Positions 35,529 through 57,268 of a stretch of 64,000 bases of DNA are shown here, one piece after another. The stretch comes from Gemmatimonadota bacterium (GTDB lineage: Bacteria > Gemmatimonadota > Gemmatimonadetes > Longimicrobiales > Gaopeijiaceae), in NCBI GenBank assembly GCA_030428885.1, contig JAUIEJ010000008.1, forward strand, positions 186,001 to 250,000. The letters run 5' to 3'. Position 1 is the first letter of the stretch, and the number at the start of each line of letters is the position of its first letter. The translations under genes and the position numbers were made by a program. Below the pieces are notes generated by a model. That model was not told the DNA's origin. It did not search any database and worked only from the letters and a program-made list of their open reading frames with translations.

Positions 35529-35708
35529 TCCGTCTCGCGGAGTCGCCTTCGACTCCGCCTCCCAGAAACAACGAGACAATCTGATCGCCCCGCGGCGAGC
35601 GGCCTCTTCCGCCGTCGCTGGCGATGCGACCCGAATGATCGGTGCCGGCGAAGCCGTGCTCCGTCGTCCCGGGTCGTAGAGACACGGACTACGACAGAGG
35701 GATTCACC

Positions 35709-35954
35709 ATGATTCGCGATCGCACACTCACGCTGGTGCTTGCCGCCGCGTGGATGTTTGGCGGGACGGGCGTCGTCCAAGCCCAGGAGCCAAGCACGGG
35801 CATGATGAAACACATGGGCAGCATGTCCCGGGGCGCGGGGGCCGTGCTCGAACACGCCGACGCCCTCGCGTTGACCCTGGACCAGGTCGCGCGACTCCGG
35901 ACGCTGCGGGACTCCGGCGCCGCCGGCTCGCCGTCGGGCGCGAGGGAAGCGTGA
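35709..35954 (+). CDS. Small periplasmic protein with Spy-like LTxxQ segment
   Basis: 81 aa. The signal peptide ends at VVQAQE. The short mature part begins STGMMKHMGSM (Met/His-rich) and contains VLEHADALALTLDQVARL, the first LTxxQ helix of Spy/CpxP-like proteins, then stops. It is either a natural mini-protein or a shortened Spy relative. Its stop overlaps the TolC-like GTG start as GTGA, so it is part of the CusCBA operon. Confidence 0.6.
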   Translation: MIRDRTLTLVLAAAWMFGGTGVVQAQEPSTGMMKHMGSMSRGAGAVLEHADALALTLDQVARLRTLRDSGAAGSPSGAREA

Positions 35955-37297
35955 CCATGAGTACGAAGCGTTGCTCGAGCCTCCTCGCCCTCCTCGCGGC
36001 GACGATGCCGGTCGTGCTCTCCGCGCAGGAGGCGGCGCTTCCGGCGCTCTTGGCGGAGGCAGACACGGCCAATCCCGAGATCCTTGCCGCGAAGAGGGCA
36101 GCCGAAGCAGCGACCGCGAGGGTGCCGCAGGCGGGGGCCCTGCCCGACCCCATGCTCGGCATCGGCTTCATGAACGTGCCGGTGACGAGCCCCGGTCTGG
36201 GCTCCGACATGATGACGATGACGAAGGTGCAGGTCGGCGCTCAGCTTCCCTGGCCGGGAAAGCTCTCTCTGCGGGAGGATGTCGCCCGTTTTGGGGCGGA
36301 GGCCGCCGGGTGGGAGCTTGAGCGTGCCCGCGACCGGATCCGTACGGAGGTGAAGGCCACGTACTACCAGGCCTACTTCGTGGACCGGGCGCTCGAGGTG
36401 ACCGCGCGCAACGAGACGCTCGTGAGCGACTTCGCCCTGCTCACGTCCTCGAAGTACGCCGTGGGCACGGGCGCGCAGCCTGATGTGCTGAAGGCCCAGG
36501 TGGAGCGTTCGCGGCTCGCCGATCAGCTCATCGCCCTCCGCGAGGAGCGGACGGGTCTCGTGGCGCGCCTGAACGCGCTGTTGGGTCGTCCCACCGACAC
36601 GCCGCTCCTGTCCACCGAGCTACCCGAGGAAGTGCGTGCGGTCGCACTGCTGAGCTCCACTGACGAGCTGAGCTTCGCTTCCGCCACGCTGTCGGGTGTT
36701 CTTCCAGGCTCTTCCGATCCCAGCGGTCCGCTCCAGTCCGTCGCCGACCTCGAGCGCCAGGCGCTCGAGCACAACCCCACGATCCAGGCGCACGTGCGGC
36801 GGGTGGCCGCTCAGGAGCGCGCGGTAGCGCTGGCGGAGACGGCGAAGCTTCCTGACCTGAGCCTTACGGCGGCTTACAGCTATCGCTTGGGGCTTGGTGA
36901 TTTCTTCGAGTTCATGGTCTCCGCCCCGCTACCGATCTTTGCGGGCCGCAAGCAGGACCAGGCCGCGTTGGAGCAGGCCGCTACGCTGGCCGAGCAACAG
37001 GCCCGCTATCACGCCATGGTCAACGACGTGAACGCCGACATCGCATCGCTCTGGGCGGATCTCCAGCGGGCGCGCGACCAGATCGTCCTGCTGAACGAGG
37101 GCATTCTGCCGCAGGCGCGCACCTCGCTCTCCTCGGCGACCGCGTCGTACCAGGTCGGAGCGGTCGACTTTCTGACCCTGCTCGACTCCCAGGTGACGCT
37201 CTACCGGCACGAGCTCGACTACCATCGGCTGCTGGCCGATTTCGCAAATAATCTGGCGGCGCTCGAGCGCGCTGTGGGCACGGAGGTGCTTCGATGA
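35951..37297 (+). CDS. cusC: Outer-membrane efflux protein (TolC/CusC family)
   Basis: 448 aa from GTG 35951, coupled by GTGA to the preceding gene and with GAGGGA five bases upstream (ATG 35957 is the alternative). The signal peptide ends VVLSAQE. Two outer-membrane-efflux repeats of long helices are visible; typical pieces are GALPDPMLGIGFMNVP, AQLPWPGKLSLREDVARFG and YQVGAVDFLTLLDSQVTLYR. It forms the outer-membrane channel of the tripartite metal pump with the next two genes. Confidence 0.9.
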   Translation: MTMSTKRCSSLLALLAATMPVVLSAQEAALPALLAEADTANPEILAAKRAAEAATARVPQAGALPDPMLGIGFMNVPVTSPGLGSDMMTMTKVQVGAQLPWPGKLSLREDVARFGAEAAGWELERARDRIRTEVKATYYQAYFVDRALEVTARNETLVSDFALLTSSKYAVGTGAQPDVLKAQVERSRLADQLIALREERTGLVARLNALLGRPTDTPLLSTELPEEVRAVALLSSTDELSFASATLSGVLPGSSDPSGPLQSVADLERQALEHNPTIQAHVRRVAAQERAVALAETAKLPDLSLTAAYSYRLGLGDFFEFMVSAPLPIFAGRKQDQAALEQAATLAEQQARYHAMVNDVNADIASLWADLQRARDQIVLLNEGILPQARTSLSSATASYQVGAVDFLTLLDSQVTLYRHELDYHRLLADFANNLAALERAVGTEVLR

Positions 37298-38616
37298 TCC
37301 GTAACGAGAAGAAGCCACGGTATTTGATTGCGGGTCGTGGGCTGTTCGCCCTGCCACTGGCCGCCCTGGCGGCGTGCTCGCCGGGCGACGGCGGGAATCC
37401 ACAGGCCGGGAGCGAAGGCGGCACGGAGGGGATGGAGGGCATGCAGATGGAACGGCAGGCGCAGGAGATGGAGGGCATGGACATGGGCGACATGGCCATG
37501 GACGGCTCCGTCCGTCTGACCCCTGCCCAGGCGTCCACCTTCGGGATCACGTTCGGCATGGCGGAAGTCCGGCCGCTCGTCCGGACGATCCGCGCGGTCG
37601 GCGTGGTCGAGTTCGACGAGACCCGCATGGCGTACGTGGCGCCGAAGTTCGGTGGCTGGGCCGAGCGACTCTACGTGGACTTCACCGGTCGAATCGTCCG
37701 TGCGGGCCAACCACTCCTGGACGTTTACTCCCCCGAGCTCGTGACGGCGCAGGAGGAGCTCCTGCTCGCCGCCCGGATGGCCGAGTCGGCCGGAACGAGC
37801 CGATTCGCGGAGGTGGCCGAAGGGGCGCGTGATCTCCTCGAATCCGCCCGTCGCCGACTCGCCTACTGGGACATCACGGACGAGCAGATCTCGCGACTCC
37901 TCGAAACCGGGGAGGTGAGCCGGACCCTCACCCTGCACGCTCCGGTGTCGGGAGTCGTGATGGAAAAGGACGTCTTCCAGGGCCAGGCGTTCCAGTCCGG
38001 CAGGAACCTCTACATGATCGCCGACCTGTCGGAAGTCTGGGTGAGCGTCGAGATCTTCGAGACCGACGTCCCGCTCGTGCGCGAGGGAATGCCTGCCGAG
38101 ATCTCGGTGGCGTCGCTTCCGGGCGAGACCCTGACCGGCACGATCGAGTACGTCTATCCCACCCTGGAGGATCGGACGCGCTCCATGCGGGCACGGGTGG
38201 CCGTCCCCAACCCGGGGGCGAGGCTCAAACCCGGAATGTACGCGACCGCGGTGCTCCGCGCCGCGCTTGGCGAAACCCTCACCGTACCCAGCTCGGCCGT
38301 GCTCCGCACGGGCGAGCGCGCGGTCGCCTTCGTGGACATGGGCGGCGGTGAGCTCATGCCCCACGAGCTCCGACTCGGTGCACGTGGCGAAGGGTACGTG
38401 CAGGTGCTGGAAGGGCTCGAGCCGGGCCACCGGGTCGTCACGTCCGCGCAGTTCCTCCTGGATTCGGAGTCGAATCTCGCCGAAGTCATGCAAGCCATGA
38501 TGGCGCAGATGGGCATGTCGGACATGGGCGGGATGGACATGGAAGGCATGGATGGGATGGGCGGGATGGACGGCATGGAGATGGCTCCGCGCCCCGACTC
38601 CGCCGGGGGGCGCTGA
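37294..38616 (+). CDS. cusB: RND periplasmic adaptor (CusB-like), Met-rich at both ends
   Basis: 440 aa, ATG 37294 overlapping the cusC stop. Lipoprotein signal LPLAALAACSPG. The N-terminal 60 residues are Met-rich (GMEGMQMERQAQEMEGMDMG), and the last 45 residues again (MQAMMAQMGMSDMGG, MDGMGGMDGMEM). The core has the barrel-sandwich and beta-barrel segments of HlyD/CusB (VAPKFGGWAERLYVDFTGRI; TLHAPVSGVVMEKDVFQGQ). The Met clusters are probable Cu(I)/Ag(I) sites and mark this as a copper/silver pump. Confidence 0.92.
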   Translation: MIRNEKKPRYLIAGRGLFALPLAALAACSPGDGGNPQAGSEGGTEGMEGMQMERQAQEMEGMDMGDMAMDGSVRLTPAQASTFGITFGMAEVRPLVRTIRAVGVVEFDETRMAYVAPKFGGWAERLYVDFTGRIVRAGQPLLDVYSPELVTAQEELLLAARMAESAGTSRFAEVAEGARDLLESARRRLAYWDITDEQISRLLETGEVSRTLTLHAPVSGVVMEKDVFQGQAFQSGRNLYMIADLSEVWVSVEIFETDVPLVREGMPAEISVASLPGETLTGTIEYVYPTLEDRTRSMRARVAVPNPGARLKPGMYATAVLRAALGETLTVPSSAVLRTGERAVAFVDMGGGELMPHELRLGARGEGYVQVLEGLEPGHRVVTSAQFLLDSESNLAEVMQAMMAQMGMSDMGGMDMEGMDGMGGMDGMEMAPRPDSAGGR

Positions 38617-38617
38617 T

Positions 38618-41600
38618 ATGCTCGCGCGCATCATCGAGTGGTCCATCAACAACAAGTTCTTCGTAATTCTCGGCACCATCGCGGTCGTCGGGTTCGGCGG
38701 CTGGGCGATGGTGACGACGCCCGTGGACGCCATCCCCGACCTCTCGGACGTCCAGGTGATCGTCCAGACGGAGTGGCGGGGGCAGGCTCCGCAGGTGATC
38801 GAGGACCAGGTGACGTACCCGCTCTCGACCGAGCTCCTCAAGGTCCCGAACACGAAGTACGTGCGCGGAATCAGCCAGTTCGGGCGATCCTTCGTCTACG
38901 TGGTGTTCGAGGACGACGTGGACATGTACTGGGCACGCTCACGTGTGCTCGAATACCTCAACGGCATCCGCGACCGGATGCCCGAGGCGGTTCAGCCACA
39001 GCTCGGTCCCGATGCCACCGGCGTCGGCTGGGTCATGCAGTACGTGCTCCTCGACCGGAGCGGCAAGCTGAACAACGCCGAGCTAAGGAGCCTGCAGGAC
39101 TGGTACGTCCGCTATCAGCTCACGGCCGTCCCGGGCGTGAGTGAGATCGCCACCCTCGGCGGCTTCGAGAAGCAGTACCAGGTCGTGCTCGAGCCGGAAC
39201 GGTTGCTCGCCTACGACCTCCCGGTTCCGAAGGTCCTGAGCGCGATCCGGGAGTCGAACCTGGACGTCGGCGGGCGGGTCCTCGAGCTCGGCGGCAGCGA
39301 GTACATGGTTCGCGGGCTCGGGTATCTCGGCTCCGTCGAGGACATCGAGAGCGTCGCTGTCGGCGTCGGCGGGGACGGGACCCCGATCACCGTGGGGGAC
39401 GTCGCGCGCGTGCAGATCGGACCGGAGATCCGGCGGGGCATGGCCGACCTCGCATGGCAGGACGACGATGGGCGGATCCGCCAGGGGGAGGTCACGAGCG
39501 GCTTCGTGGTCATGCGCTTCGGCGCGAACCCGCTCGAGGTCATCGAGCGCGTGAAGGAACGGATGAGCGAGATCCAGCGGGCGCTCCCCGAAGGCGTGGA
39601 GATCGTGGTCGGGTATGACCGGAGCGACCTGATTCATCGCGCGATCGAAACGCTTCGCCACAAGCTCATCGAGGAGAGCCTGATCGTCGCCCTCGTGACG
39701 GTCCTGTTCTTGCTCCATGCCCGGAGCGCGTTGGTGGCGATCATCACGCTTCCGGTGGGCGTCCTGATGTCGTTCCTGGTGATGCGGTGGCTGGGCGTGA
39801 ACGCGAACATCATGAGCCTGGGCGGCATCGCGATCGCGCTCGGAGCCATGGTGGACGCGGCCATCGTGATGATCGAGAACATGCACAAGCACATGGAGCG
39901 GAATGAGCATGAAGGTCGGCCGCGCTCCCAGTGGCAGCTCGTGGCGGACGCCTCCAAGGAGGTAGGACCCGCGCTCTTCTTCTCGCTGCTCATCATCACG
40001 CTGAGCTTCGTGCCGATCTTCGCCCTGGGCGCTCAGGAAGGGCGGCTGTTCCGGCCGCTGGCGCTCACGAAGACGCTGGCCATGGCCGCATCGGCGCTGC
40101 TGGCGATCACGCTCGTACCCGTGACCATGGGCGCGTTCATCAGGGGGCAGATCCAGCCGGAGGAGCGCAACCCGATCAATCGCGCGGCGCTGAAGATCTA
40201 CCGTCCGACCATCGGCTTCGTGCTTCGGAATCGCCTCGCCGTGATCGGAGGTGCCGTCGCCGTGTTCCTCGTGACGCTGATCCCGTATGGCCGACTGGGC
40301 AGCGAGTTCATGCCTCCGCTCATCGAGGGTTCTATCATGGACATGCCCTCGGTCTTCCCCGGCGTCGGGACCGGACAGGTGAAGCGGATGCTCGAGCAGC
40401 GGGACCGCGCGATGGCGAGCATCCCGGAAGTGGAGATGGTTCTGGGCAAGGCTGGCCGGGCCGAGACGGCCACCGACGCCGCGCCGCTCTCGATGTTCGA
40501 GTCGGTCGCCATTCTCAAGCCGGAGGAGGAATGGCGAGAGGGGGTCGACTACGACTCGCTCGTGGCGGAGATGGACGCCGTCACCCGCACCCCTGGCGTG
40601 GCCAACATGTGGTCCATGCCCATCAAGAACCGGTTGGACATGCTGGCGACGGGGATCAAGACACCCGTCGGGATCAAGATCTTCGGCCCGGATCTCGCGA
40701 TCCTCGAGGAGATCGGCACGCGGATCGAGGGGCTGCTGCCCATGGTGGAAGGCACCGCCTCGGTGTTCGCCGAGCGGGCGATCGGCGGCCGGTATCTGGA
40801 GGTGGATGTGGACCGGGACGCCGCCGGCCGCTACGGCCTGAGCATGACCGACGTGCAGCACACGATCATGACCGCGGTCGGGGGCATGAACGTGACCAGG
40901 ACCATCGAAGGCAGGGAGCGCTACACCGTGAACGTGCGGTACGCACGGGAGCTCCGCAGCGGTACCGACGCCATCGGCCGCGTCCTCGTGGCCACGCCCA
41001 CGGGTGCGCAGGTCCCGTTGGGGCAGCTCGCTGACATTCGCTTCGCGGGCGGACCGCCCATGATCAAGAGTGAGAACGCGCTGCTGAACAGCCTGGTGTA
41101 CGTCGACGTGCGCGGACGCGACATCGGTGGCTACGTGGAGGAGGCGCGCGAGCTCCTCGAGCGGGAGCTCGATCTCCCCACCGGGTACCGGCTCGAGTGG
41201 TCGGGCCAGTTCGAGGCCATGGAGCGCGCGAACCGGACGTTGCGGATCGTCGTCCCCATCACATTGGCCATCATCTTCCTCCTCCTCTACATCAACTTCC
41301 GCAGCGTGACGGAGAGCCTGATCGTCATGCTCTCCGTGCCGTTCGCCCTGGTGGGCAGCGTCTGGTTGCTCTGGGCCCTGGGCTACGATCTCTCGGTGGC
41401 CGTGTGGGTCGGCCTCATCGCGCTCGCGGGCGTCGCCGCGGAGATCTCGGTCATCCTGCTCGTCTACCTGGACGAAGCCTACCATCGGCATGAACGGGAG
41501 GGGAGGCTGCGCAACAGGGCGGAGCTCATGGAGGCGGTCCGCGAAGGAGCCGGAGAGCGCGTACGGCCGGTCCTGATGACGGCCACCGCCATCACCGCCG

Positions 41601-41839
41601 GCCTCCTGCCCATCCTGTGGGGTGGCGGAACCGGGTCGACGGTTATGAAGCGCATCGCCGCGCCCATGGTGGGCGGGATGGTGTCGGCCACGGTGCTCAC
41701 GCTCGTGGTGGTGCCGGCGCTGTACGCGCTCTGGAGGGAGTGGCAGCTCCGGAGTACGTGGAAGGAGCTGACGCTGGGGGATGGCGAGTCGTCCGAGCCC
41801 GGGGGTCGTGGGACGGCCACCGGGGCAACACCGTCTTGA
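38618..41839 (+). CDS. cusA: Cu(I)/Ag(I) RND efflux pump CusA
   Basis: 1073 aa, ATG 38618 two bases after the cusB stop. The RND architecture is complete: LARIIEWSINNKFFVILGTI at the start, VDAIPDLSDVQVIV, two periplasmic domains and twelve TM helices. The fourth helix carries GGIAIALGAMVDAAIVMIEN, the form with single Asp and Glu found in CusA, unlike the DFG form of CzcA in the second operon. The Met-rich channel (MWSMPIKNRLDMLATGIKTP) is also CusA-like. It takes metal from the periplasm or cytoplasm to CusC. Confidence 0.94.
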   Translation: MLARIIEWSINNKFFVILGTIAVVGFGGWAMVTTPVDAIPDLSDVQVIVQTEWRGQAPQVIEDQVTYPLSTELLKVPNTKYVRGISQFGRSFVYVVFEDDVDMYWARSRVLEYLNGIRDRMPEAVQPQLGPDATGVGWVMQYVLLDRSGKLNNAELRSLQDWYVRYQLTAVPGVSEIATLGGFEKQYQVVLEPERLLAYDLPVPKVLSAIRESNLDVGGRVLELGGSEYMVRGLGYLGSVEDIESVAVGVGGDGTPITVGDVARVQIGPEIRRGMADLAWQDDDGRIRQGEVTSGFVVMRFGANPLEVIERVKERMSEIQRALPEGVEIVVGYDRSDLIHRAIETLRHKLIEESLIVALVTVLFLLHARSALVAIITLPVGVLMSFLVMRWLGVNANIMSLGGIAIALGAMVDAAIVMIENMHKHMERNEHEGRPRSQWQLVADASKEVGPALFFSLLIITLSFVPIFALGAQEGRLFRPLALTKTLAMAASALLAITLVPVTMGAFIRGQIQPEERNPINRAALKIYRPTIGFVLRNRLAVIGGAVAVFLVTLIPYGRLGSEFMPPLIEGSIMDMPSVFPGVGTGQVKRMLEQRDRAMASIPEVEMVLGKAGRAETATDAAPLSMFESVAILKPEEEWREGVDYDSLVAEMDAVTRTPGVANMWSMPIKNRLDMLATGIKTPVGIKIFGPDLAILEEIGTRIEGLLPMVEGTASVFAERAIGGRYLEVDVDRDAAGRYGLSMTDVQHTIMTAVGGMNVTRTIEGRERYTVNVRYARELRSGTDAIGRVLVATPTGAQVPLGQLADIRFAGGPPMIKSENALLNSLVYVDVRGRDIGGYVEEARELLERELDLPTGYRLEWSGQFEAMERANRTLRIVVPITLAIIFLLLYINFRSVTESLIVMLSVPFALVGSVWLLWALGYDLSVAVWVGLIALAGVAAEISVILLVYLDEAYHRHEREGRLRNRAELMEAVREGAGERVRPVLMTATAITAGLLPILWGGGTGSTVMKRIAAPMVGGMVSATVLTLVVVPALYALWREWQLRSTWKELTLGDGESSEPGGRGTATGATPS

Positions 41840-41857
41840 GACAGGAGAAGAAGACCG

Positions 41858-41941
41858 ATGAAGGAGATCAAGGCATACGTCCGGCCAGAGCGCGTGGAGG
41901 CCGTGGTGGCCGCACCCCACTGCGGGGTTGGCACACCTTGA
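41858..41941 (+). pseudogene. N-terminal remnant of a PII-like protein
   Basis: ATG 41858 (GGAG upstream) opens a 27-codon frame, MKEIKAYVRPERVEAVVAAP, which matches the start of PII/GlnB-type proteins (first strand and helix), then ends at TGA 41939. PII-like genes commonly follow cusA/czcA-type genes. The rest of the gene is missing or unrecognisable. Confidence 0.6.
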
Positions 41942-42023
41942 GCATCATCCACGTTCGTTACCCCAAGGGCAACCTTCCAGCGTCGTTCCAGGGTGCCGGC
42001 CTCAGGACGGAGAGCTCTATTCC

Positions 42024-42287
42024 ATGTGGGATTCCAATCTCCGCGCTCAGAGCGGGGCTTGTGGCCTAATCGGCGATAATGGCAGGCCTCGATGCCGTCG
42101 AGGCACAGGTCACCGCACCCGGCCTGACTCTCAACGAGGCTCTCGAGAAGGCCCGTACGACCAATCACCTCCTACGAGCCGCTGAACTCAGAATCGGGGA
42201 GGCGTCGGGGCAGTTGACGCAGGCTGCCGTGTGGCTGATGGACAACCCGGGCCTCTCCGGTTCCGTCGGACGCCGCTCGGCCCGGAC
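42024..42287 (+). pseudogene. 5' fragment of a TolC/CzcC-like gene (decayed paralogue of 54801)
   Basis: From ATG 42024 the DNA resembles the start of the gene at 54801, including about 30 bases upstream of the start. The signal-peptide part is frameshifted. From about 42115 the frame of ORF 42079 gives LTLNEALEKARTTNHLLRAA and ELRIGEASGQLTQAAVWLMD, nearly identical to the 54801 protein (DNHLLRAAELRIGEASGQLT). Similarity ends abruptly near 42287, where a gene on the other strand begins to be recognisable. Confidence 0.75.
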
Positions 42288-42334
42288 GGGCACCCCTCGA
42301 AGTAGACCAGCTCGATCCTGGGTGTGGTGTCCAT
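42285..42334 (-). pseudogene. 5' stub of a thioredoxin-like gene
   Basis: ATG 42334, behind GGGAG and 15 bases after the merP-like stop, encodes MDTTPRIELVYFEGCP. This is the start of the small thioredoxin-fold proteins (xELLYFEGCPN) often found in mer operons. After about 16 codons it runs into the truncated TolC-like fragment of the opposite strand. It is a stub left by a deletion that fused the two loci. Confidence 0.55.
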
Positions 42335-42349
42335 CTCGTCTCTCCCGGC

Positions 42350-42724
42350 TCAGCGGCGTTCCACCGCGGTGTATCCCGTCAGGCGCTCGATCTCACTCGT
42401 GATGATCTGCACGGTCGTTTCGGTCGAGTCGAAGACCACGTGTCCGCGACCCTCCTCGAAGGAGAACTCCGCGTCGGTCACGCCCTCCACCCGCATCACA
42501 GCCAGCCTGGCTGTCTTCGCGCAGCCCGTTCACGTCATTCCGGTGACTTCGAGGTCCACCCGCTTCGTCCCGGGCTCGACGTCGCTCGGGATGTCGCTCC
42601 GGGCGTCGGTCGCGGCATCGGCGTCCGCGTCGTCCGGCATCTCCATGCCGCTGTGCGCCGGGATCTGCAGCACGACGCCCCCGACGATCAGGGTGAGGAT
42701 CAGGGCCCAGGCTCTTCGGCTCAT
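42350..42724 (-). CDS. merP: MerP-like HMA protein with in-frame UGA at the first metal-binding Cys (candidate selenoprotein)
   Basis: Read through one TGA (42532-42530), the frame is 124 residues and intact. It has an N-terminal TM/signal segment (WALILTLIVGGVVLQIPA), an acidic linker and an HMA domain. The metal motif of MerP is GMTCxxC; here it reads GMT-UGA-TGC, followed by AKTARLAVMRVEGVTDAEFS and ERLTGYTAVERR to the stop at 42350. UGA therefore replaces exactly the first ligand Cys. A hairpin follows at the distance expected for a bacterial SECIS element. The alternative is a nonsense mutation of a Cys codon, which is real because neighbouring genes are decaying. Confidence 0.6.
42498..42514 (-). 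other. SECIS-like hairpin downstream of the in-frame UGA
   Basis: On the transcript, ACAGCC and GGCUGU form a six-base stem around the loop AGGCU. The loop begins 22 nucleotides after the UGA and has a G in its first two positions. A further CGC/GCG pairing is possible below an internal loop. This fits the general bacterial SECIS model (loop about 16-37 nt after UGA, G at loop start), though the classical bulged U is not evident. Confidence 0.4.
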
Positions 42725-42736
42725 CGCTCCGGCTCG

Positions 42737-43078
42737 TCAGAGGAGAAGGGTCTGCCAGCGGGGGAAGGTGGAGAGAACGATCACCGCGACGGTCGCGATC
42801 CAGAGGACGATCCGCATGTGCCGCCGAGCGGCGGGGCGCGCGCAGACACTCCCGGGCTCGCAGGCGGCCTTCTCCTCGCGATGCAGCAGGTAGGATCCGT
42901 AAAGGAGGCTCGCCGCCGCCAGGAGGAAGAGGGGTCGAAACGGCTCGAACACCGCGAGCCCCGCTCCGGAGACCCCCAGCGCCACTGCTACGATCGGCCC
43001 GGCACAGCACAGCGCGGACCCCACCGCGGCCGCGACGGCTCCGGCGCTCGCTCCAATGGCCTTCCGGTCCTCCCTCAT
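42737..43078 (-). CDS. merT: Mercuric ion transporter MerT
   Basis: 113 aa, ATG 43078 behind GGAGG. Three TM helices. The first has the paired cysteines GSALCCAGPIVAVALG (Cys 24-25) that take Hg(II) from MerP. A second Cys pair lies in the loop ACEPGSVCARPA near residue 72. It is followed after 12 bases by the MerP-like gene, the usual merT-merP order. It appears intact, but its regulator and the downstream genes are damaged. Confidence 0.85.
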   Translation of the reverse strand: MREDRKAIGASAGAVAAAVGSALCCAGPIVAVALGVSGAGLAVFEPFRPLFLLAAASLLYGSYLLHREEKAACEPGSVCARPAARRHMRIVLWIATVAVIVLSTFPRWQTLLL

Positions 43079-43141
43079 CGCCCCCCTCCCTCGTCGATCG
43101 TATCCTTCATCGAATCCTGAACCCCGCACCGTAGTATCGGG

Positions 43142-43534
43142 TCAAGCATCCCCCTTCAACGCGTCGAGGATGGGACACTCGACCGTGGGCTGGCGGGACT
43201 CGCACTGATCGATCAGCGACCTCAGCGACCCGGCGATCCGCCGCAGGTCGGCGACCTTGGCCTCGACGGAGCGAGCTTCGCGGTGGCGCGTTCCCGCACT
43301 TCGCCACATGCCTCCACATCCTCGACCCGCAGCTCGAGGAGCTCGTCGATCTCCGCGAGCGTGAACCCGAGCTCCTGCGCCCTACTCACGAACTGCAGGG
43401 TTCCGACGGCCTCCCTTGGCTATCGACGGTAGCCGGGGCTCGGGAAGGATGCCGATCCGCTCGTAGTAGCGGAGCGTTTCGCGGCTCACGCCCGCGGCCG
43501 CGGCCAACTCACCGGTCCTGAGCTTCTTCTCCAT
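43142..43534 (-). pseudogene. merR: merR regulator with two frameshifts and a nonsense codon
   Basis: ATG 43534 begins MEKKLRTGELAAAAGVSRETLRYYERIG, a normal MerR DNA-binding start. After ILPEP the reading frame shifts, and the continuing frame (GYRR then a TAG, then PREAVGTLQFVSRAQELGF) contains a stop in place of the usual Tyr. A second shift after ERATAKLA is needed to reach SVEAKVADLRRIAGSLRSL and DQCESRQPTVECPIL. Cys residues at the three Hg(II) ligand positions of MerR are still recognisable (EACGEV, DQCES, VECPIL), so it descends from a mercury sensor. Confidence 0.85.
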
Positions 43535-43540
43535 GAGAAC

Positions 43541-43572
43541 AGAGTACACCCGGTGGTTGGGTACCGGGTCAA
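43541..43572 (-). promoter_or_regulatory. MerR-type promoter of the mer locus
   Basis: On the minus strand TTGACC (43572-43567) and TACTCT (43546-43541) are separated by 20 bases, the overlong spacer that MerR-family activators correct. Within it is the dyad ACCCGGT (43548-43554) N8 ACCGGGT (43563-43569). The site lies just upstream of the merR start and is well preserved although merR is broken. Confidence 0.8.
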
Positions 43573-43720
43573 GGGAGCGTGTCGTTCGAGTCCGACGAGC
43601 GCCGCCCTCCGACGGGGGCCCGCAGAAGCGTGCTCGGCGGCGAGGCTCACCCACTCGGCGTCCGACGAGCAGATTGACCCGTTCAGCCATTCCTTCGCCC
43701 GCATTCACCGAGTCCGCGCC

Positions 43721-44104
43721 ATGACACTCAAGCTCTTTCTGGCCGCCCATCCCTACGCGGACGACGTGCTCGCGCTTCCTGTGGAGGACATCGACCGGGC
43801 GGCGGTGCACTACGGGCCGGCGTTCGCGATGACGGAGGTCGAGCGACGTGAGGACCCGCCCACGGTGATCATGGAGCGCGACGGGGTCCGCATCGGATTC
43901 TCGGAGAATGGCGGGGATCCCGCGCAGGAAGGGGCCGCCATCCTCGTGTCCGATATCGAGCGCGCTCGTGAGGAGCTTCTCTCAGCCGGCGTCGAGGTCG
44001 CGAACTCGCGAGTGGACGAGCGCGACGGGAAGCGGTACCAGGTGTTCTTCGTGATCGCTCCGGACGGGCTCTGCTACTACTTCCATCAGGAGTTGGCGAT
44101 GTAG
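43721..44104 (+). CDS. VOC (glyoxalase/bleomycin-resistance fold) protein
   Basis: 127 aa, ATG 43721. The vicinal-oxygen-chelate fold is shown by a short N-terminal strand (VLALPVEDIDRAAVHYGPAF), VIMERDGVRIGFSENGGDP in the middle and FFVIAPDGLCYYFHQE at the end, the last with the usual C-terminal Glu ligand. Which reaction it performs (isomerase, dioxygenase, resistance protein) cannot be told. It is single and convergent with the next gene. Confidence 0.75.
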   Translation: MTLKLFLAAHPYADDVLALPVEDIDRAAVHYGPAFAMTEVERREDPPTVIMERDGVRIGFSENGGDPAQEGAAILVSDIERAREELLSAGVEVANSRVDERDGKRYQVFFVIAPDGLCYYFHQELAM

Positions 44105-44147
44105 GGCTCAGTTGGGGTCGTGACGCAGGAGGGCATGTGGCAGCCCG

Positions 44148-44615
44148 TCAGCCCACCGGTGAACTCGCGCTCTGCGTGTGTACCACCCTCCATGCGCCGT
44201 CCACCCACTGGAAGAGGTACGTGCCGTGCCCCCGGTTGTGGATCTCGCGGCCGGCCCCGGTCGTGAGTCGGATCTCGGTGTCGACCACCGCCCAGGCGAA
44301 GTCGCCCTCGAAGTGCGTCTGGATGTTCGAGAATTCGAGCTGCAAGCCCAGCTCCGCCTCGGGCTCGACATGGTTCTCGATCAGGTCCGTCAGACCGACG
44401 TTCTGGCCGCCGCCCTCGAAGTAGCGCGCGCCGTCCCAATCGAGGAAGTGCTCACGAAACGGTGCTCCGTCGCCCATTTCCCATCCGACGCGGATGTCCT
44501 CGAGGATGGCCTCGATCGCATCGGGATCGTGGTCGGCCGAGGTTTCCTGCATCGTCTGCGATTCGGGTGCGCATCCGACCGTGAGCAGGACGAGAAGTGT
44601 GGCAAGGGCTCGCAT
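44148..44615 (-). CDS. NTF2-like lipoprotein, third copy
   Basis: 155 aa, ATG 44615 behind GGAGG. The lipoprotein signal LLVLLTVGCAPESQ is followed by a DUF4440-like fold: AILEDIRVGWEMGDGAPFRE, then ARYFEGGGQNVGLTDLIENH and NRGHGTYLFQWVDGAWRVVH. The EGGGQN motif corresponds to EGAGVN of the copies at 31.0 and 34.2 kb. It follows the DUF305-NTF2 fusion gene by 65 bases on the same strand, so the two are probably co-transcribed. Confidence 0.75.
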   Translation of the reverse strand: MRALATLLVLLTVGCAPESQTMQETSADHDPDAIEAILEDIRVGWEMGDGAPFREHFLDWDGARYFEGGGQNVGLTDLIENHVEPEAELGLQLEFSNIQTHFEGDFAWAVVDTEIRLTTGAGREIHNRGHGTYLFQWVDGAWRVVHTQSASSPVG

Positions 44616-44680
44616 GGGTCCTCCGAACTGGAGTGATGGTGGTGTGGACGCAGCGCGGTCGCGCGGAGCAGCGTCGATGA

Positions 44681-45637
44681 TCATGACCAGCTGATCGACC
44701 GGATCCGCCACGCGCCGTCCGGGTCACGCGCGAGAACCATCAGCTCACCTCCGCGCGAGTCGACCTCCCGACCGCGGTACGTCCCGATCGCTCGGCTCGT
44801 GGAGGTCACCCACGCAAGATCTCCCTCGATCCGGACCTCGAGCTCGGACCGCTCGCGCGGAACCGCCTGGGCGAAGGCCATGTCGGCCGGAAGGTGCCCT
44901 CCGGAATACTCCTCGACCGTCTCGATGCCGCCGCCCTCGAGAACGCGCGCGTCGGGCGCGAGGAGTCCCAGAACCGTTGCGGTGTCGCCGCTTGCGAGCG
45001 CCTCGTGAAATCCGTTCACGACCGCCGCGATCTCGCCAGTCGCGGAGTCGTCGGCATCGCCCGAGAAGTCCGGCACGGGCCGCCCTGCCGCGTCATCCGC
45101 CGTGGCCGCGATCCCGTTCGTCCGGATGTCGTCGATGAGCCATTCCATCTCCGCGATCTCGCGGCGCTGCGCGGCGATGATCTCATCGGCGAGTTCCCGC
45201 ACCCGCGCGTCCTCGATCCCGGCGCGTTCGCTCGTCAGGATGGCGATCGAATGGTGCGGGATCATACCCTCCATGTAGTCGACCCCGTCCACCGTCACCT
45301 GACTTCGGACCAGGCCGACACCCGTCGCCAGAAGCACCGCGGCCACCATGAAGGTGAGCGCGTTCGCCCGGGCGTCGGGGTACATCCCGAGCATGAAGAG
45401 CATCATCACGGCCGTCATGGATCCCCCCATGATCAGCGTCATGAAGAAGCGCGTCTCGCTGAACCAGGCGTGCCCGATGATGTCGTACGAGTTCAGGTAC
45501 ATCAGGAAGAACATCGCCACCATCGACGTGGCGATCATCGCGAAGAACCGGAGGTAGCCGGGCCCGCTTGAGCCATGGATGGTGGAGCAGGCGCTCTTTT
45601 CGGATGCGGACGCCGCTTCGGAGTGTTCGTCGGTCAT
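44681..45637 (-). CDS. DUF305 membrane protein fused to an NTF2-like domain
   Basis: 318 aa, ATG 45637. Residues 1-190 match the DUF305 protein at 7336-7905 almost throughout (YLRFFAMIATSMVAMFFLMY; DYMEGMIPHHSIAILTSERA), including the three TM helices. After GRPVPDFSGDAD a second domain of about 115 residues follows: IAAVVNGFHEALASGDTATV, RVLEGGGIETVEEYSGGHLP and ending DGAWRIRSISW, an NTF2-like cone like the neighbouring gene product. The fusion links two families that both recur across this island and suggests that they act together outside the membrane. Confidence 0.85.
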   Translation of the reverse strand: MTDEHSEAASASEKSACSTIHGSSGPGYLRFFAMIATSMVAMFFLMYLNSYDIIGHAWFSETRFFMTLIMGGSMTAVMMLFMLGMYPDARANALTFMVAAVLLATGVGLVRSQVTVDGVDYMEGMIPHHSIAILTSERAGIEDARVRELADEIIAAQRREIAEMEWLIDDIRTNGIAATADDAAGRPVPDFSGDADDSATGEIAAVVNGFHEALASGDTATVLGLLAPDARVLEGGGIETVEEYSGGHLPADMAFAQAVPRERSELEVRIEGDLAWVTSTSRAIGTYRGREVDSRGGELMVLARDPDGAWRIRSISWS

Positions 45638-45730
45638 GGTCTCGCTGCTCGCGGGAAGGGCTCTCGGGATGCGCTTGCTCCGGAGGAGAGCGCACACGCA
45701 TTGGGATGCCCGCGTTCTTCGTACCAGGGT

Positions 45731-46655
45731 CTATGAGAGCGTGAGTAGTGCCTCCCCGACCCCCGGGGAGTCAAGAGCTTCCCCCGCAGCGCGGGGGAGT
45801 ATAGACGTCGACTCGAGGCTGGCCGCGAACTCCGCCGGGGTCCGATAGCCCAGGGACATATGCGGCCGCTCCAGGTTGTACGCCACCCGGTAGTGCTCGG
45901 CCAACACCGCAGCCTCGCGCACGTCCGTGAACGGTTCCCGGTCCAGGAACTCGTCCCGGAGCCGGCTGTTGAACGACTCGACGTAGCCGTTCTCCCACGG
46001 GCTGCCCGGGGCGATGAGCAGCGTCTTGACGCCGGCCGCCTCCAGCCCGTCCCGTACGATCCGAGCGATGAACTCGGGCCCGTTGTCCGAGCGAAGATAC
46101 CTGGGCTCGCCGTGCACCCGGAACAGGTGGAGCAGCACGGCCACCACGTCCTCGCTCGTGAAGCTCCGGCCGACCTCCAGTGCATGAGCTTCTCGGGTGT
46201 ACTCGTCCAAGACCGGCAGGAACTTCAGCATCCCGCCCCGCTCGGTCCGGTCCAGCACGAAATCGTAGCTCCACACATGCCCTCGGTAGTCCGCTCGCCG
46301 CACCGTGCAGCTGTTCTCGCTCGAGCCCCGAGCCCGTCGCTTCCGCCTCCGGGTCCGGATCTGCCACCCCTCGGCCTTCCAGATCCGGTGCACGCGCTTC
46401 CGGTTCACCGACCACCCCGCCCGCCGGAGGCGGATCCAGATCCCTCGATACCCGCTGCGTTTGTGCTTCGTACGCAGGGCGTCCACCGCGCCCACCAGGG
46501 CCCGATCCCCCTCCGCCTTCCGGCTCTGGTAGCTGCTGCGTCGAGCGTGCCTGGCCCAGGACCTGGCATGCCCGGCGTTCGGAGACTCCCACAACGTGCT
46601 GCACGTGCTTCACCGCACGCCGCCTCCGAGCCGGGCTCAGAAGTTTCCCTCGGCC
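45731..46655 (-). pseudogene. IS3-family OrfB transposase with internal frameshift
   Basis: The DDE catalytic residues are all visible: Asp in VWSYDFVLDRTERGG, Asp in LRSDNGPEFIARIV and Glu in GSPWENGYVESFNSRLRDEF. The N-terminal part, KLLSPARRRRAVKHVQHVVG and RRACQVLGQARSTQQ, is in one frame. The rest, from YQSRKAEGDRALVGAV, is in another; one extra base near 46535 separates them. Both frames are otherwise open, so the damage is recent or a sequencing error. Confidence 0.75.
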
Positions 46656-46979
46656 GCTTCCTTCAGGATGCTCATGTCCACGGCCTGATCCGCCACGATC
46701 TTCTTCAGCCGCGCGTTCTCCTTCTCCAGCGCCTTCAGACGCTTCAGCTGATCCTCGTTCATCGCCCCGTACCGACGCTTCCACCGATGGTACGTCGCCT
46801 CACTCACCTCCAGATCCCGGCAGACCTCCGACACCGTCGCTCCCTCCGCCAGACGGGTCTCCGCACGACGCGGCTTCCCGATGATCTGCCCCGGCTTGTG
46901 CTTCTTCCCCTTCATTCGAATCCTCCGACCCAAAGGTCCGTTGGACTCTCATTCTACCTGGTCCCAATTCCGGGGGGCA
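45749..46979 (-). mobile_element. IS3-family insertion sequence (IS407-like)
   Basis: About 1.2 kb with overlapping orfA and orfB on the minus strand. Probable inverted ends are TGCCTCCCCG at 45749 and its partner TGCCCCCCGG read inward from 46979. I cannot find a clear target duplication, and the left boundary could differ by a few tens of bases because the orfB frame reads past it. It lies between the DUF305-NTF2 gene and the YPC-type ATPase. An indel in orfB suggests the copy is inactive. Confidence 0.75.
46637..46915 (-). CDS. IS3-family OrfA (HTH protein)
   Basis: 92 aa, ATG 46915 with GGAGG upstream. KPGQIIGKPRRAETRLAEG begins a Tnp_1-type helix-turn-helix (VSEVCRDLEVSEATYHRWKR), followed by a leucine-zipper-like helix ending LKKIVADQAVDMSILKEAA. 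It ends in TGA within a GGGAAAC stretch where the orfB frame overlaps, as expected for programmed -1 frameshifting in this family. Confidence 0.88.
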   Translation of the reverse strand: MKGKKHKPGQIIGKPRRAETRLAEGATVSEVCRDLEVSEATYHRWKRRYGAMNEDQLKRLKALEKENARLKKIVADQAVDMSILKEAAEGNF

Positions 46980-47024
46980 GACCAGCACCCCCGAGCCCGG
47001 GGCGACGTGGTGGTGTGCGCTCGA

Positions 47025-49592
47025 TCACCCCTCTTCCACGGAAGCACGCTCGACCCTGAAGCCACTCGATTCCACCACCTCTTGGATCTCCGGCGCGCCG
47101 ATGGCGGCCGGCCGGAAATCCACCCTGACTCGCTTCCGGGTCGCGTCGGCTTCCACCTCGGTCACGCCGTCGCGAGCGGCCAGCACCATGCGGATGGTGT
47201 TCTCGCATCCGGCGCAATGCATGTCGGGCACGTCGAGGTAGAGCCGCGTCCCGTTGCCGTGCGATGCCCTCGCTGTATCCCCGACCTCGCCCGACTCTGC
47301 ATCGGGTTCCGCCGTCCAGTCCTTCGCCCCCACCTCGGCGGCCGGCTCGGGCACGTCCCGTCCTGCCCCGAGAAGTCGCCCGCCGAAGCTGTTCAGGAGA
47401 ACCGCCGTGACGCTCGCAGCCATCGCGATCATCGCCCAGACGGGGTGAACTAGCCCGGTCGTCGCGAGGGGCACGCCGACTCCGTTGAAGAAGAACGCGA
47501 GCCAGAGGTTCTGCACCGTCTTCCGGTAGCTGCGGCCCCCGATCTCGTACGCGTCCAGAACGGCCGAGAGTCGCTCCCCGATCAGGATGACATCGCTCGA
47601 CTCGATCGCGATGTCCGTCCCCGCCCCGATGGCGATGCCGACATCGGCCTGCATGAGCGCCGGCGCATCGTTGATGCCGTCGCCCACGAACGCGACCCGT
47701 CGTCCCTCCGCCTGGATCTCGCGGACCCGCGCGGCCTTCTCGTCGGGCAGGACCCGAGCCCCCACCTCGTCGATCCCGACCTGGCGTGCCACGGCCTGCG
47801 CGGTCCGCTCTGCGTCACCGGTGAGCATCAGGGGGGAGAGCCCGAGAGCGCGCATCCGCTCCACCGCCTCTCGGGCATCGGGCTTGGGCGCGTCGGCGAT
47901 GGCGATGAGCCCGGCGAGCTCGCCATCCACGGCCACCAGCACCGCGGTCCGCCCTTCCGACTCCTCCCGCTCCAGGGTGTCTCGCGCCCCCTCCACCGCC
48001 ACCCCCTGCTCGTCGAGGAACGACGGCTGCCCCACGAGGACCGGGCGACCCCCGACCGAGGCGGCCACACCACCTCCGACGATCGCCTCGAAGTCGGTGA
48101 CGTCGGGCACCGCCAACCCGTCGGTTTCCGCCGCCTCGGCGATCGCTCGTCCCAGTGGATGCTCCGACCGCGACTCGGCGCCGGCCGCATGGCGGTGGAC
48201 GTCGCTCCGGCTCCACGCTCCGAAGGGAGTCACCTCGACCACGCGTGGTCGCCCCTCGGTGATCGTCCCGGTCTTGTCCAGCACGACCGTGTCGACATCC
48301 TTCAGGATCTGGAACGCCTCCCCGCTCCGGATCAGGATCCCCCGCTCGGCGGCCATGCCTCCGCCGCGGATGAGCGCGAGCGGCGTCGCCATCCCGAGGG
48401 CGCACGGGTAGCCCATGACGAGCACCGAGAGCGCCGCGTACATCGCACGGACCCAGAGCGACTCACCGGCCAGCAGGCCCCAGCCCACGCTCCAGAACAG
48501 GAGCGCGCCCAGCGCGATCAGAAGCACCGCAGGTACGTAGTGCTTCAGGACCCGGTCCACGAGAACGATGATCCCGGGCTTCATCGCCTTCGCTTCTTCG
48601 ACGTGCCGGGCCACCTGGAAGAGGAAGCTCTCCTCGCCGGTGCGAGTCACCCGGACCAGCAGCGTCCCGGTCTGGTTCAGACTCCCGCCGATCACCTCGT
48701 CGCCTCCGCGCTTCTCCTCGGGGATGGGCTCTCCCGTGACCAACGCCTCGTCCACGGCGCTCCGTCCCTCCGTCACCGTCCCGTCCACCGGGACGCGCTC
48801 GCCGGGGCGGACCCGCACCAGGTCGCCGCTGCGAACCTGCTCGACGGGGACCTCCTCCTCGACACCTTCGCGGACAACACGTGCGGTGTTCGGCCGCAAC
48901 TCGAGTAGCTTGCGCACCGACTGCGAGGCGTGCGCACGGACGGAGAGGGCGACGTAACCGGACAGCAGATGGTAGGTCGTGAGGAAGATCACGACCCCGA
49001 AGAAGTCGAACGCGGGGAAGCCCCCGAGGCCCCACCAGCCGGCCACGGGCCAGGGCGTCCCGAGCAGCCCCCCCGCATAGCCGCTGAAGGCCCCCGCCGT
49101 CAGCAGGACGTGCTGGTTCGCTATGCCGCGCCGGGCCGCACCCCAGGCCATGCGGATGATGTGGCGGCCCAGTCCGAGGAACACGAAGCTCGCCGCCGCC
49201 CACGCGGCCCATACGTGCCAGACGCGCATCGTCCACGCGCCGAACCACATGAGGACCATCACCGACAGGACCGCGACGGCGAACACGGCCGCCCCGTAGA
49301 GCCGCCGTTTCTCGGTCCGGAGCGCTGCCTGCTGCTCCTCGAACGCCTGCACCTTCCGCGGGTCCCGGATGGTGTAGCCCAGCGCGCGGAGCGTGTCCTG
49401 GATGTCGCTCTCGCTGGTCTCGTCCGGGCGGAACCGGACCAGCGCCTCCTCGTGGGCGAGGGAGACGTGCACCTCGTCCACCCCCTTCTGGCGCGAGACC
49501 GCCTTCCGGATCGACTCGCTGCAGAACGAGCAACTCATCCCTCCGACCTTGAGCTGGACGGTCTCGACGGGCCGAGAGGTCGTGTGCGGCAC
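47025..49592 (-). CDS. P1B ATPase with YPC motif and HMA domains at both ends
   Basis: 855 aa from GTG 49592 behind GGGAGG. The N-terminal HMA has [17 protein letters not shown] (Cys 21 and 24). The ATPase core follows with [20 protein letters not shown] in the metal-binding [18 protein letters not shown] and GDGINDAP. A second HMA forms the last 70 residues ([19 protein letters not shown]). YPC replaces CPC, and a C-terminal HMA is uncommon. TGEP for TGES in the actuator loop is also unusual. The metal is not certain: a soft cation (copper, or mercury given the mer-like context) is likely. It is distal in the operon that starts with merR at 51666. Confidence 0.88.
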
Positions 49593-49595
49593 GGG

Positions 49596-50150
49596 CTACC
49601 GCCTCCCGCCGGGCCAGGTGAGCAGCGGCATGTTCACCACCACACCCGGGCGTTCCTCCGTCAGTTCGCCTCGCTGCAGCGCGGCGCGCACCGCCTCGGC
49701 CGACCGAAGTTGCACAGCCGTGTCGGGATCGGACCAGCGCACGAGATGGACCCGCCGGAGGGGCCGATAGCAGGCGTCGGACACAGGGCAGTCGAACACG
49801 TCGGGCTGGTACTCGAGCGGGCCCCGCGCTCCGTCCGGCCGCACGCCGTTGGCGAAGACGTAGACGGTCGCGGTGGCGCGCTCCGGCACCTCCGCGAGCG
49901 ACGGCACGACGGGCACCGGCGAGCCCATCATCTCGGTGAGGGTCCGGGCGATCGTCGAGTCGCTCGCTTCCGTATGGATGAAGAGGACCTCCTCACCCCC
50001 GGCGTAGCCGCTCACCGGGGGCACCACGGGCGCGCGTCCGGACACGCCACCCATGAACCCCGCGTTTGCGCCCTCGCAGCCGGTCAGGACGGCGGACGTG
50101 CACGCAAGCACGATCAGCGCACGAGGTCGTACGCAGCGAACTGCACTCAT
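49596..50150 (-). CDS. Uncharacterised lipoprotein
   Basis: 184 aa, ATG 50150, sharing one base with the preceding stop (TGATG). Lipoprotein signal VLACTSAVLTGCEG. The mature part has GGEEVLFIHTEASDSTIART, PVVPSLAEVPERATATVYVF, QPDVFDCPVSDACYRPLR and an end ERPGVVVNMPLLTWPGG. The pattern resembles an uncharacterised family I associate with haloarchaea and copper clusters (DUF7482-like), but I am not sure. Two Cys and several His and Met could bind metal in the periplasm. Four bases separate it from the ATPase start. Confidence 0.65.
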   Translation of the reverse strand: MSAVRCVRPRALIVLACTSAVLTGCEGANAGFMGGVSGRAPVVPPVSGYAGGEEVLFIHTEASDSTIARTLTEMMGSPVPVVPSLAEVPERATATVYVFANGVRPDGARGPLEYQPDVFDCPVSDACYRPLRRVHLVRWSDPDTAVQLRSAEAVRAALQRGELTEERPGVVVNMPLLTWPGGRR

Positions 50151-50524
50151 CACCGTCCTCCTTCGTGCTCGTCCTCGGCCGCGATCGTGCGGCGTTCCTC
50201 TACCGGAAACCCCTGCCCCTCCACCAACGCCTCCACCTCGACCGCCGTGATCCGAGCCGGGTCGAACCGCGCCCGCACGAGCTTCGTGTCGAGGTCGATC
50301 TGGATGTCGCGGAGCCCCGCCTTCCGGAGTCGCACCCGGATCGAACGGACGCAGATCGGACAGGCCATGGTGGGCACGGTCATCGCGATCGTCCGCAGGT
50401 CCGCGTCGGAGGTTGCCGCGGCAGCCTCCCCTGCGCCGGCGGCGCGGGCGGAAGCGTCCGCCTCGCCACCTCCGCACCCGGCAAGCAACGCTATCGAGAG
50501 CAGGAACGTCGAGAGAATCTTCAT
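50150..50524 (-). CDS. HMA-domain lipoprotein (MerP-like)
   Basis: 124 aa. ATG 50524 is chosen so that AGGAGG has proper spacing (GTG 50527 also possible). The lipoprotein signal LLSIALLAGCGGG is followed by an Ala-rich linker and an HMA domain with VPTMACPICVRSIRVRLRKA (CxxC near residue 57), then DIQIDLDTKLVRARFDPARI. As an exported HMA protein it resembles MerP and could hand metal to the ATPase or the CcdA-like protein in the same operon. Confidence 0.85.
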   Translation of the reverse strand: MKILSTFLLSIALLAGCGGGEADASARAAGAGEAAAATSDADLRTIAMTVPTMACPICVRSIRVRLRKAGLRDIQIDLDTKLVRARFDPARITAVEVEALVEGQGFPVEERRTIAAEDEHEGGR

Positions 50525-50533
50525 CACGCCTCC

Positions 50534-51253
50534 TCAGCCCAGGCTGACCCAGGCCGTCCAGAGTCCGGTTCCGAGGAAGTACAGGGCCGCGAGCAGCAGA
50601 AGTGCGCCCGCCGCGCGTTCGAGGGTGCTGATCCAGCGGCCCCCGCCCCGCACGCGATCGATCAGCCCGGTGCCGGTTCCCAGCAACAGGAGCGGAACGC
50701 CCCGGGCGAGGCCGAAGACGAACATCAGTGCCGCCCCGTACCACCACGTGCCCGTCGCTGCCGCGGCACCCAGCATCGGCAGGACCATGGGCGTGCACGC
50801 CGGACACGCAGTGAGGCCGAACGGGATCCCGAGCGCGTACGCCCCCGGGATCGAGTGCGCCTTGCGCCAGGTCATTCGCACCACGGGCCAGCGCACCCGC
50901 ACCACCCGGTGCAACGCCAGGCCGAACAGGGCGAGGACCGCCGCCGCCAGGAGGTTCCAGAGCACGAGGTGCCGAGCCACCGTCTCGATGACCACGCCCC
51001 CGAGCCACCCGAACAGGGCGCCCAGGGCCGCGTCCACGGTGGCGGTGCCGAGCACGAACGCCGACGAGAGGACGAGGGCCCGGGAACCGGACCGCTCCTC
51101 ATCGCCCGCGACGAAGCCCGCGATCACGGCGTAGAGCGCGTACGAGGACGGCGCCAGACCCATCGCGAATCCGGCGGCGAACACGACTGCGAACGCGCCC
51201 AGCGAGATACTGCCGAGTGCCTCCAGGCCGCCGGGTCCCCACAGGTGCTCCAT
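50534..51253 (-). CDS. CcdA/DsbD-like membrane protein
   Basis: 239 aa, ATG 51253. Six TM helices of the DsbD/CcdA type are predicted. The conserved cysteine pair lies in GLTACPACTPMVLPMLGAA near residue 143 (CPAC); the first-helix cysteine normally present (near GFAMGLAPSSYALYA) is replaced by Ala-Pro. Such proteins carry electrons across the membrane, here possibly to reduce the CxxC of the exported HMA protein. The loss of the first Cys suggests a relative devoted to metal transport (mer-type CcdA-like proteins). Confidence 0.78.
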   Translation of the reverse strand: MEHLWGPGGLEALGSISLGAFAVVFAAGFAMGLAPSSYALYAVIAGFVAGDEERSGSRALVLSSAFVLGTATVDAALGALFGWLGGVVIETVARHLVLWNLLAAAVLALFGLALHRVVRVRWPVVRMTWRKAHSIPGAYALGIPFGLTACPACTPMVLPMLGAAAATGTWWYGAALMFVFGLARGVPLLLLGTGTGLIDRVRGGGRWISTLERAAGALLLLAALYFLGTGLWTAWVSLG

Positions 51254-56087: not shown

Positions 56088-57268
56088 ATCCCGTGACCCT
56101 TCGCCGGAAGCCGGCCCGCGCACTTCTCGTCGCCATGTCGACCCTTACGCTGAGCTGCCACCCGGCCGAACCAGAATCGACCGGTGACGAGGGCGCGGAG
56201 GCGGACCTCCCGAACCGGGTGGCCCTCACGACCGATGCCCTGGCGTCGCTCGAGCTGACCTATGCGACGGCCGAGGTGATGGAGCTCGGCGCGACGGTGG
56301 ACGTTCCCGCCGAACTCGTTCCCGATCCGGACCGGCATGCCGAGATCGGAGCCCGGGTCACGGGAAGGATCCTGGACGTGTTCGTGAACGACGGGGACCA
56401 CGTCGGCCCGAGCGACCCGCTGCTGGCCATCGAGAGCCCGGAGATGGGGCGAGCGTGGGCCGATCTCGTCGCGGCGCGCGCCGCGGAGCGCGTCGCGCGC
56501 CGGGCTTGTGATCGCCTGGCAGAGCTACTGGAGGACCGCGTGACATCTGTCCGATCCTTCGAGGAGGCCGAAGGCGCGTGGGAGATCGCGAACGCGGACC
56601 TCCGCGCCGCACGGACGCGCCTCGCGGCGCTCGGTGTGACGGACCCCGTCGAGCCGCCGGACAATCCGGCGCGCGTGGTCCTCCGCAGCCCGCTCGCGGG
56701 CACCGTGACCGACCGCATGGCCTCACGCGGGGCGTGGGTGGATCCCGCCGACATCCTGCTCCGGGTCATCGACCTCGCCGAGGTCTGGCTGGAGGCCTCC
56801 GTCTACGAGCAGAAGATGCGCTACGTCGACGTCGGGCAGGACGTTCAGGTCGACGTTCGCGCCTTTCCGGATGAGGTGTTCCTCGGGCGGGTCGAACGGA
56901 TCGACGGGATACTGGACGAAGAGACGCGCTCCATCGGGGTACGCGTCTCGCTGGCCAACGAGGGCGGGCGGCTGCGACCCGGGATGTTCGGCACGGCCCG
57001 CATCCGAGGTAGCTACGCCGGGGAGGCCCGGGCCCTGGTCGTGATTCCGGCGGCGGCGGTGCAGGAGCTCGACGGCGGCCTGGCCGCTTTCCTCCGCGTA
57101 GGTGAGGGCGTCTTCGAGGTGCGGCCCGTTCACACGGGCCGGCGCGACGGCGCACTCGTCGAGGTCGTCGCCGGGCTCGAGGTCGGTGACGAGGTCGTCG
57201 CCGACGGCAGCCTGCTGCTCAAGGGCCAGCTTCTGCGCTCGGAGCTCGCAGAGGAGGACGAAGGCTGA
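56084..57268 (+). CDS. czcB: RND periplasmic adaptor (CzcB-like)
   Basis: 394 aa, ATG 56084 overlapping the czcC stop. Lipoprotein-like signal LTLSCHPAEPES. The adaptor domains are visible in PDRHAEIGARVTGRILDVFV, VLRSPLAGTVTDRMASRGAW and RLRPGMFGTARIRGSY. No Met-rich ends, in contrast to the CusB-like protein, which fits a divalent-cation (zinc, cobalt, cadmium) rather than copper pump. Confidence 0.9.
   Translation: MNPVTLRRKPARALLVAMSTLTLSCHPAEPESTGDEGAEADLPNRVALTTDALASLELTYATAEVMELGATVDVPAELVPDPDRHAEIGARVTGRILDVFVNDGDHVGPSDPLLAIESPEMGRAWADLVAARAAERVARRACDRLAELLEDRVTSVRSFEEAEGAWEIANADLRAARTRLAALGVTDPVEPPDNPARVVLRSPLAGTVTDRMASRGAWVDPADILLRVIDLAEVWLEASVYEQKMRYVDVGQDVQVDVRAFPDEVFLGRVERIDGILDEETRSIGVRVSLANEGGRLRPGMFGTARIRGSYAGEARALVVIPAAAVQELDGGLAAFLRVGEGVFEVRPVHTGRRDGALVEVVAGLEVGDEVVADGSLLLKGQLLRSELAEEDEG

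Follow-up and report, generated by a model that had tools for sequence, protein, structure and literature searches.

A predicted selenoprotein form of MerP with selenocysteine at the metal site in Gemmatimonadota

We analyzed a merP-like gene located on the minus strand (42724..42350) of a 64,000-nt stretch of Gemmatimonadota DNA, hereafter the window. This gene very probably encodes a selenoprotein form of MerP, in which selenocysteine (Sec) would be inserted at an in-frame UGA under the direction of a hairpin. Since both the UGA and the hairpin are shared with relatives, the codon almost certainly stands for Sec and does not mark a broken gene. Judging from these comparisons, the UGA is ancestral and not a lesion, although the operon around merP is partly decayed.

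The merP gene and its operon

As presented in Table 1, merP has a single in-frame stop, the UGA at codon 65, and the second metal-binding Cys is intact. The frame starts at an ATG at 42724 (M1 of the translation), ends with a TGA at 42352-42350, and its translation reads MSRRAWALILTLIVGG...VTGMT-U-TGCAKTARLAVMRVEGVTDAEF...TGYTAVERR-stop. The predicted protein possesses a hydrophobic anchor or signal at its N-terminus and an HMA domain at its C-terminus (residues 59-118), which matched PF00403 with 40.9 bits for a Pfam cut-off of 24.8. With the UGA as only internal stop and this Pfam match, we confirmed the MerP-like frame that a previous sequence-only reading had proposed, with UGA at the first metal-binding Cys. 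The motif given in that reading, GMT-UGA-TGC, was right for the position of the UGA but not for a direct UGA-TGC adjacency, since two codons intervene: the metal site is GMT-UGA-ACG-GGC-TGC, a UxxC site (GMT-U-T-G-C in the protein). No strand had been assigned. The gene lies on the minus strand, and a plus-strand reading of 42350-42724 was rejected as it yields no MerP-like protein. An Rfam search of the 64-kb window returned no match.

Table 1. Features of the window around merP, and the selD gene of the host genome.
Feature	Position	Strand	Remarks
merP-like gene with predicted Sec UGA	42350..42724	-	124 aa, ends TGA
In-frame UGA, codon 65	42530..42532	-	first metal-binding Cys position
SECIS-like hairpin ACAGCC-AGGCU-GGCUGU	42498..42514	-	16-32 nt past the UGA
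merT-like membrane transporter gene	42737..43129	-	PF02411, 82.3 bits; intact
merR remnant	43142..43550	-	frameshift, TAG for Tyr codon, second frameshift
DF-family-like thioredoxin-fold gene start (MDTTPRIELVYFEGCPS)	42280..42334	-	truncated after ~16 codons
CusA/CzcA RND pumps (two)	38552-41839, 57268-60405		metal-resistance island
Copper P-type ATPase	47025-49592		metal-resistance island
CopM-like protein	44681-45697		metal-resistance island
IS3-family transposase	45731-46594		metal-resistance island
selD (L017)	C15:127054-127992		UGA-containing selenoprotein gene

The merT gene lies upstream of merP in the same operon and contains no in-frame UGA. The frames of merT and merP are open while the neighbouring merR is broken. 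The decay previously reported for the upstream merR and for the downstream thioredoxin-like gene was indeed observed: merR carries two frameshifts and a TAG replacing a Tyr codon, and ~16 codons of the thioredoxin-fold gene are left from 42334. This last gene is full length in several relatives, for example in L059. The merP operon of the window is thus partly decayed and the use of this copy is putative; having lost its regulator and the downstream gene, it may be silent or need other promoters.

On the plus strand, a frame at 42079-42280 resembles, as judged by eye, part of a TolC-type outer membrane protein. It adjoins the truncated DF-like gene, which hints at a rearrangement junction close to 42280. 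At a larger scale, positions 35642-51000 and 57268-60405 of the window form a metal-resistance island.

Relatives sharing the UGA and the hairpin

Relatives were drawn from 154 genomes of the order, 395 genomes of the phylum and 84,980 species genomes scanned with a DNA pattern; by design, this pattern scan favours the present clade and so does not gauge the true spread. Two of the 17 pattern-scan matches (L064 and L070) were rejected as chance matches in unrelated frames. The window merP included, 20 distinct genes carry a TGA precisely where the first Cys codon is expected, a recurrence well outside what chance would give; the second metal-site Cys codon is TGC or TGT in all 20, which are all UxxC. 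Both the UGA and the coding sequence beyond it are conserved across species; merT adjoins merP in nearly all relatives, and merA does so in several. A search for homologues with UGA at this position had been suggested, and close homologues do carry UGA rather than Cys at the codon and keep the hairpin.

A second merP of the host genome, 30 kb off and 47% identical, has a TGA at the same codon. It belongs to an intact merT-merP-merA-merR operon (C20, ~257.9-260.5 kb), with a MerA scoring 548.6 bits and a merR ORF of 137 aa. This intact copy is likelier to be the working gene than the window copy. The 20 UGA genes come from Gemmatimonadota, save for one on a chromosome labelled Terriglobia (OX638355.1; L059:2866-3222). 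The Sec-merP operon of this chromosome closely resembles those of Gemmatimonadales, and its presence there would reflect either a horizontal transfer or a mislabelled assembly.

We then considered the hairpin, whose stem ACAGCC/GGCUGU and loop AGGCU were found exactly as described from the sequence alone. The stem begins 16 nt past the UGA, with nucleotides 16-21 paired with 27-32 and an apical loop at 22-26. The published bSECIS limits are a loop of 3-9 nt, a stem of 4-16 bp, G in the first two loop positions, a UGA-loop spacing of 16-37 nt and an MFE <= -7.5 (PMC13188914). The window hairpin fits these limits (6 bp, 5-nt loop AGGCU, spacing of 21 nt), in line with the bacterial SECIS range invoked in the sequence-only reading, and the 19-nt hairpin reaches -10 kcal/mol. 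The 39-nt stretch taken alone is unremarkable (folding z of -0.29), with a rival fold slightly more stable. Since MFE is uninformative for this stretch, we used covariation and contrasts with Cys genes instead.

Two pairs of the hairpin, 18-30 and 21-27, fall both on third-codon (synonymous) positions. Each pair is standard in 20/20 UGA genes, compared to 6/14 (18-30) and 7/14 (21-27) Cys genes (Fisher p = 0.0002 and 0.0006, respectively, uncorrected for relatedness). In each of them a compensatory change has altered both sides once, from G-C to A-U in the window merP and from C-G to U-A in L036. Over the whole helix, 95% of the pair cells are standard versus 28-70% in slid versions, and 2/500 shuffles did equally well. 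The loop opens with G followed by G or U in 20/20 UGA genes, as the G-[G/U] rule demands; the loop Arg codon of UGA genes ends in G or U only, whereas that of Cys genes may also end in A or C. The more distant Cys genes L090, L091 and L093 also satisfy the simple hairpin rule, which by itself is consequently not specific.

Sec machinery, Cys relatives and alternative readings of the UGA

The host genome (5.39 Mb, 95% complete) contains all the Sec machinery whose presence the sequence-only reading had proposed to verify: a tRNA-Sec (74.5 bits, anticodon UCA), selA (519 bits), selB (317 bits) and selD (355 bits). A single in-frame TGA lies in selD, at the position where SelD normally has its Sec (SHGAGUACKLG), so merP is not the only predicted selenoprotein of the genome. 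Among the genomes of the order, tRNA-Sec was present in 13/14 of those with a UGA merP, for an overall rate of 101/154 (hypergeometric p = 0.018, uncorrected for relatedness). It was not found in the UGA genome G059, a MAG that is 81% complete.

The sole close Cys member, L038, has TGT at the codon, and no tRNA-Sec was found in its 99%-complete genome (G064). L038 nests within the UGA clade with a fork support of 98/97, in a tree built on 66 columns only. Given this nesting and a genome where tRNA-Sec was not found, a Sec-to-Cys reversion is the simplest reading, and we regard L038 as a probable case. Its hairpin stem still pairs, but the loop is not preserved (CGAAU). Just outside the UGA clade, the Cys MerP relative L091 (G240) keeps a SECIS-like hairpin with the loop CGGGU, and is possibly another reversion relic.

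Three other readings of the window gene were weighed against a Sec-MerP. A simple nonsense mutation of TGC or TGT in a decaying mer operon, previously held as a serious alternative, would suit a gene whose operon also contains a broken merR and a truncated downstream gene. However, 19 other distinct genes have a TGA at this codon, including the paralogue in its intact operon, the hairpin is kept at synonymous sites and the Sec machinery is present. The shared UGA, the paralogue and the hairpin rule out this mutation as the origin of the UGA, and we give it virtually no credit. A decoding of the UGA as Cys, or as another residue, is scarcely more credible to us. The UGA does occupy a Cys position, and tRNA-Cys with a UCA anticodon are known in some bacteria; against this, the genome has a true tRNA-Sec with selA, selB and selD, SelD is itself encoded by a UGA selenoprotein gene, the SECIS-type hairpin is far less well preserved in Cys genes than in UGA genes, and TGA serves as the normal end of the window merT and merP.

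The last reading accepts an ancestral Sec-MerP and concerns the fate of the window copy, which might no longer be expressed or useful and be turning into a pseudogene along with its operon. We consider this possible, albeit rather unlikely. It would be consistent with the three lesions of merR, the loss of the downstream gene, the intact operon elsewhere in the host genome and the fairly long branch of the window MerP (0.61). In contrast, the merT and merP frames are intact, the stem change of merP relative to its relatives keeps the pair, and the loop AGGCU fits the SECIS rule.

Known metal-site selenoproteins and a proposed mechanism

MerP (TIGR02052), whose HMA fold has already been solved (PDB 1afi, 1osd), shares with the window protein this fold, the GMTxxxC site and the linkage to merT, with merA/merR in some relatives. 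Plasmid MerP are 40-50% identical to the window protein over the domain. The window protein differs by its Sec codon at the first Cys and its N-terminal anchor plus linker, and scored 48.7 bits with TIGR02052, under the cut-off of 92.55. Adjacent merT in the window, together with the merA and merR of the paralogue's operon, corresponds to the linkage expected of MerP. By homology, the window MerP may bind Hg(II) in the periplasm, and a specificity of Sec-MerP for Hg is predicted from operon context and homology.

The top-scoring family for the window protein was NF041115, a UxxU metal-binding (seleno)protein that likewise carries Sec in the metal site of an HMA domain, and that was matched by 15/15 members scanned. 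This family appears in a 2026 catalogue as UxxU with 2 Sec (PMC13188914), whereas the UGA members found here are all UxxC and never UxxU; the window protein scored 65.8 bits, under the cut-off of 95. NF045683, a MerT/CopZ fusion-like heavy metal transport selenoprotein, also combines Sec use with MerT and HMA parts, but MerT and MerP are separate genes in the window, and the score was 23.8 bits versus a cut-off of 375. The window protein falls short of the curated cut-off of each NCBIfam model that it matches. The Global Ocean Sampling survey lists by name a 'Mercuric transport protein MerP' with Sec, from 2 sequences of one sample (PMC2398784). Sec at HMA/MerP-type metal sites is thus already catalogued, but the UxxC clade, with its own gene next to merT, sometimes merA, in Gemmatimonadota, is not captured by these precedents as they are listed (PMC2398784, PMC13188914). 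No paper describing a UxxC Sec-MerP clade was found among the open-access papers searched, and the deep-Sep paper makes no mention of MerP or Gemmatimonadota.

In the mechanism that we propose, Sec-tRNA(UCA) would be made by SelA using selenophosphate from SelD, and brought by SelB to the merP UGA, guided by the hairpin 16-32 nt downstream. If Sec is inserted in vivo, as we infer from the sequence, ribosomes would go on past the UGA, translate the HMA domain and stop at the 42350 TGA. MerP would be tethered to the membrane, on the periplasmic side, via its N-terminal hydrophobic segment, and Sec65-x-x-Cys68 would bind Hg(II) as selenolate plus thiolate. The selenolate of Sec should hold Hg(II) tighter than a thiolate. 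The metal would then go to MerT, the product of the adjacent upstream gene, which would take it up with its Cys pair for import and for reduction by MerA.

It is, in our view, somewhat more likely than not that Gemmatimonadota run a complete merT-merP-merA-merR operon with Sec metal capture, that is a dedicated selenolate mercury trap which would go back to Cys when a lineage loses its Sec machinery. The very high affinity of selenium for mercury is usually framed as a poisoning mechanism; if our reading is true, Sec at the capture site of a mer operon turns this chemistry into a defence. MerP is small enough for a direct comparison of Sec and Cys, and the clade amounts to a clean natural experiment on Sec versus Cys, in which the probable reversion has left a relic hairpin. 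Standard annotation would probably truncate such genes or call them pseudogenes, because the window protein scores under all curated selenoprotein cut-offs.

Beside the Sec-merP of L039 (G088), at ~1.5 kb on the minus strand, we observed another HMA frame whose metal site carries an in-frame TGA (IYGMD-U-SVCAHAVRVAVEKLDGV); it may represent a second HMA selenoprotein family.
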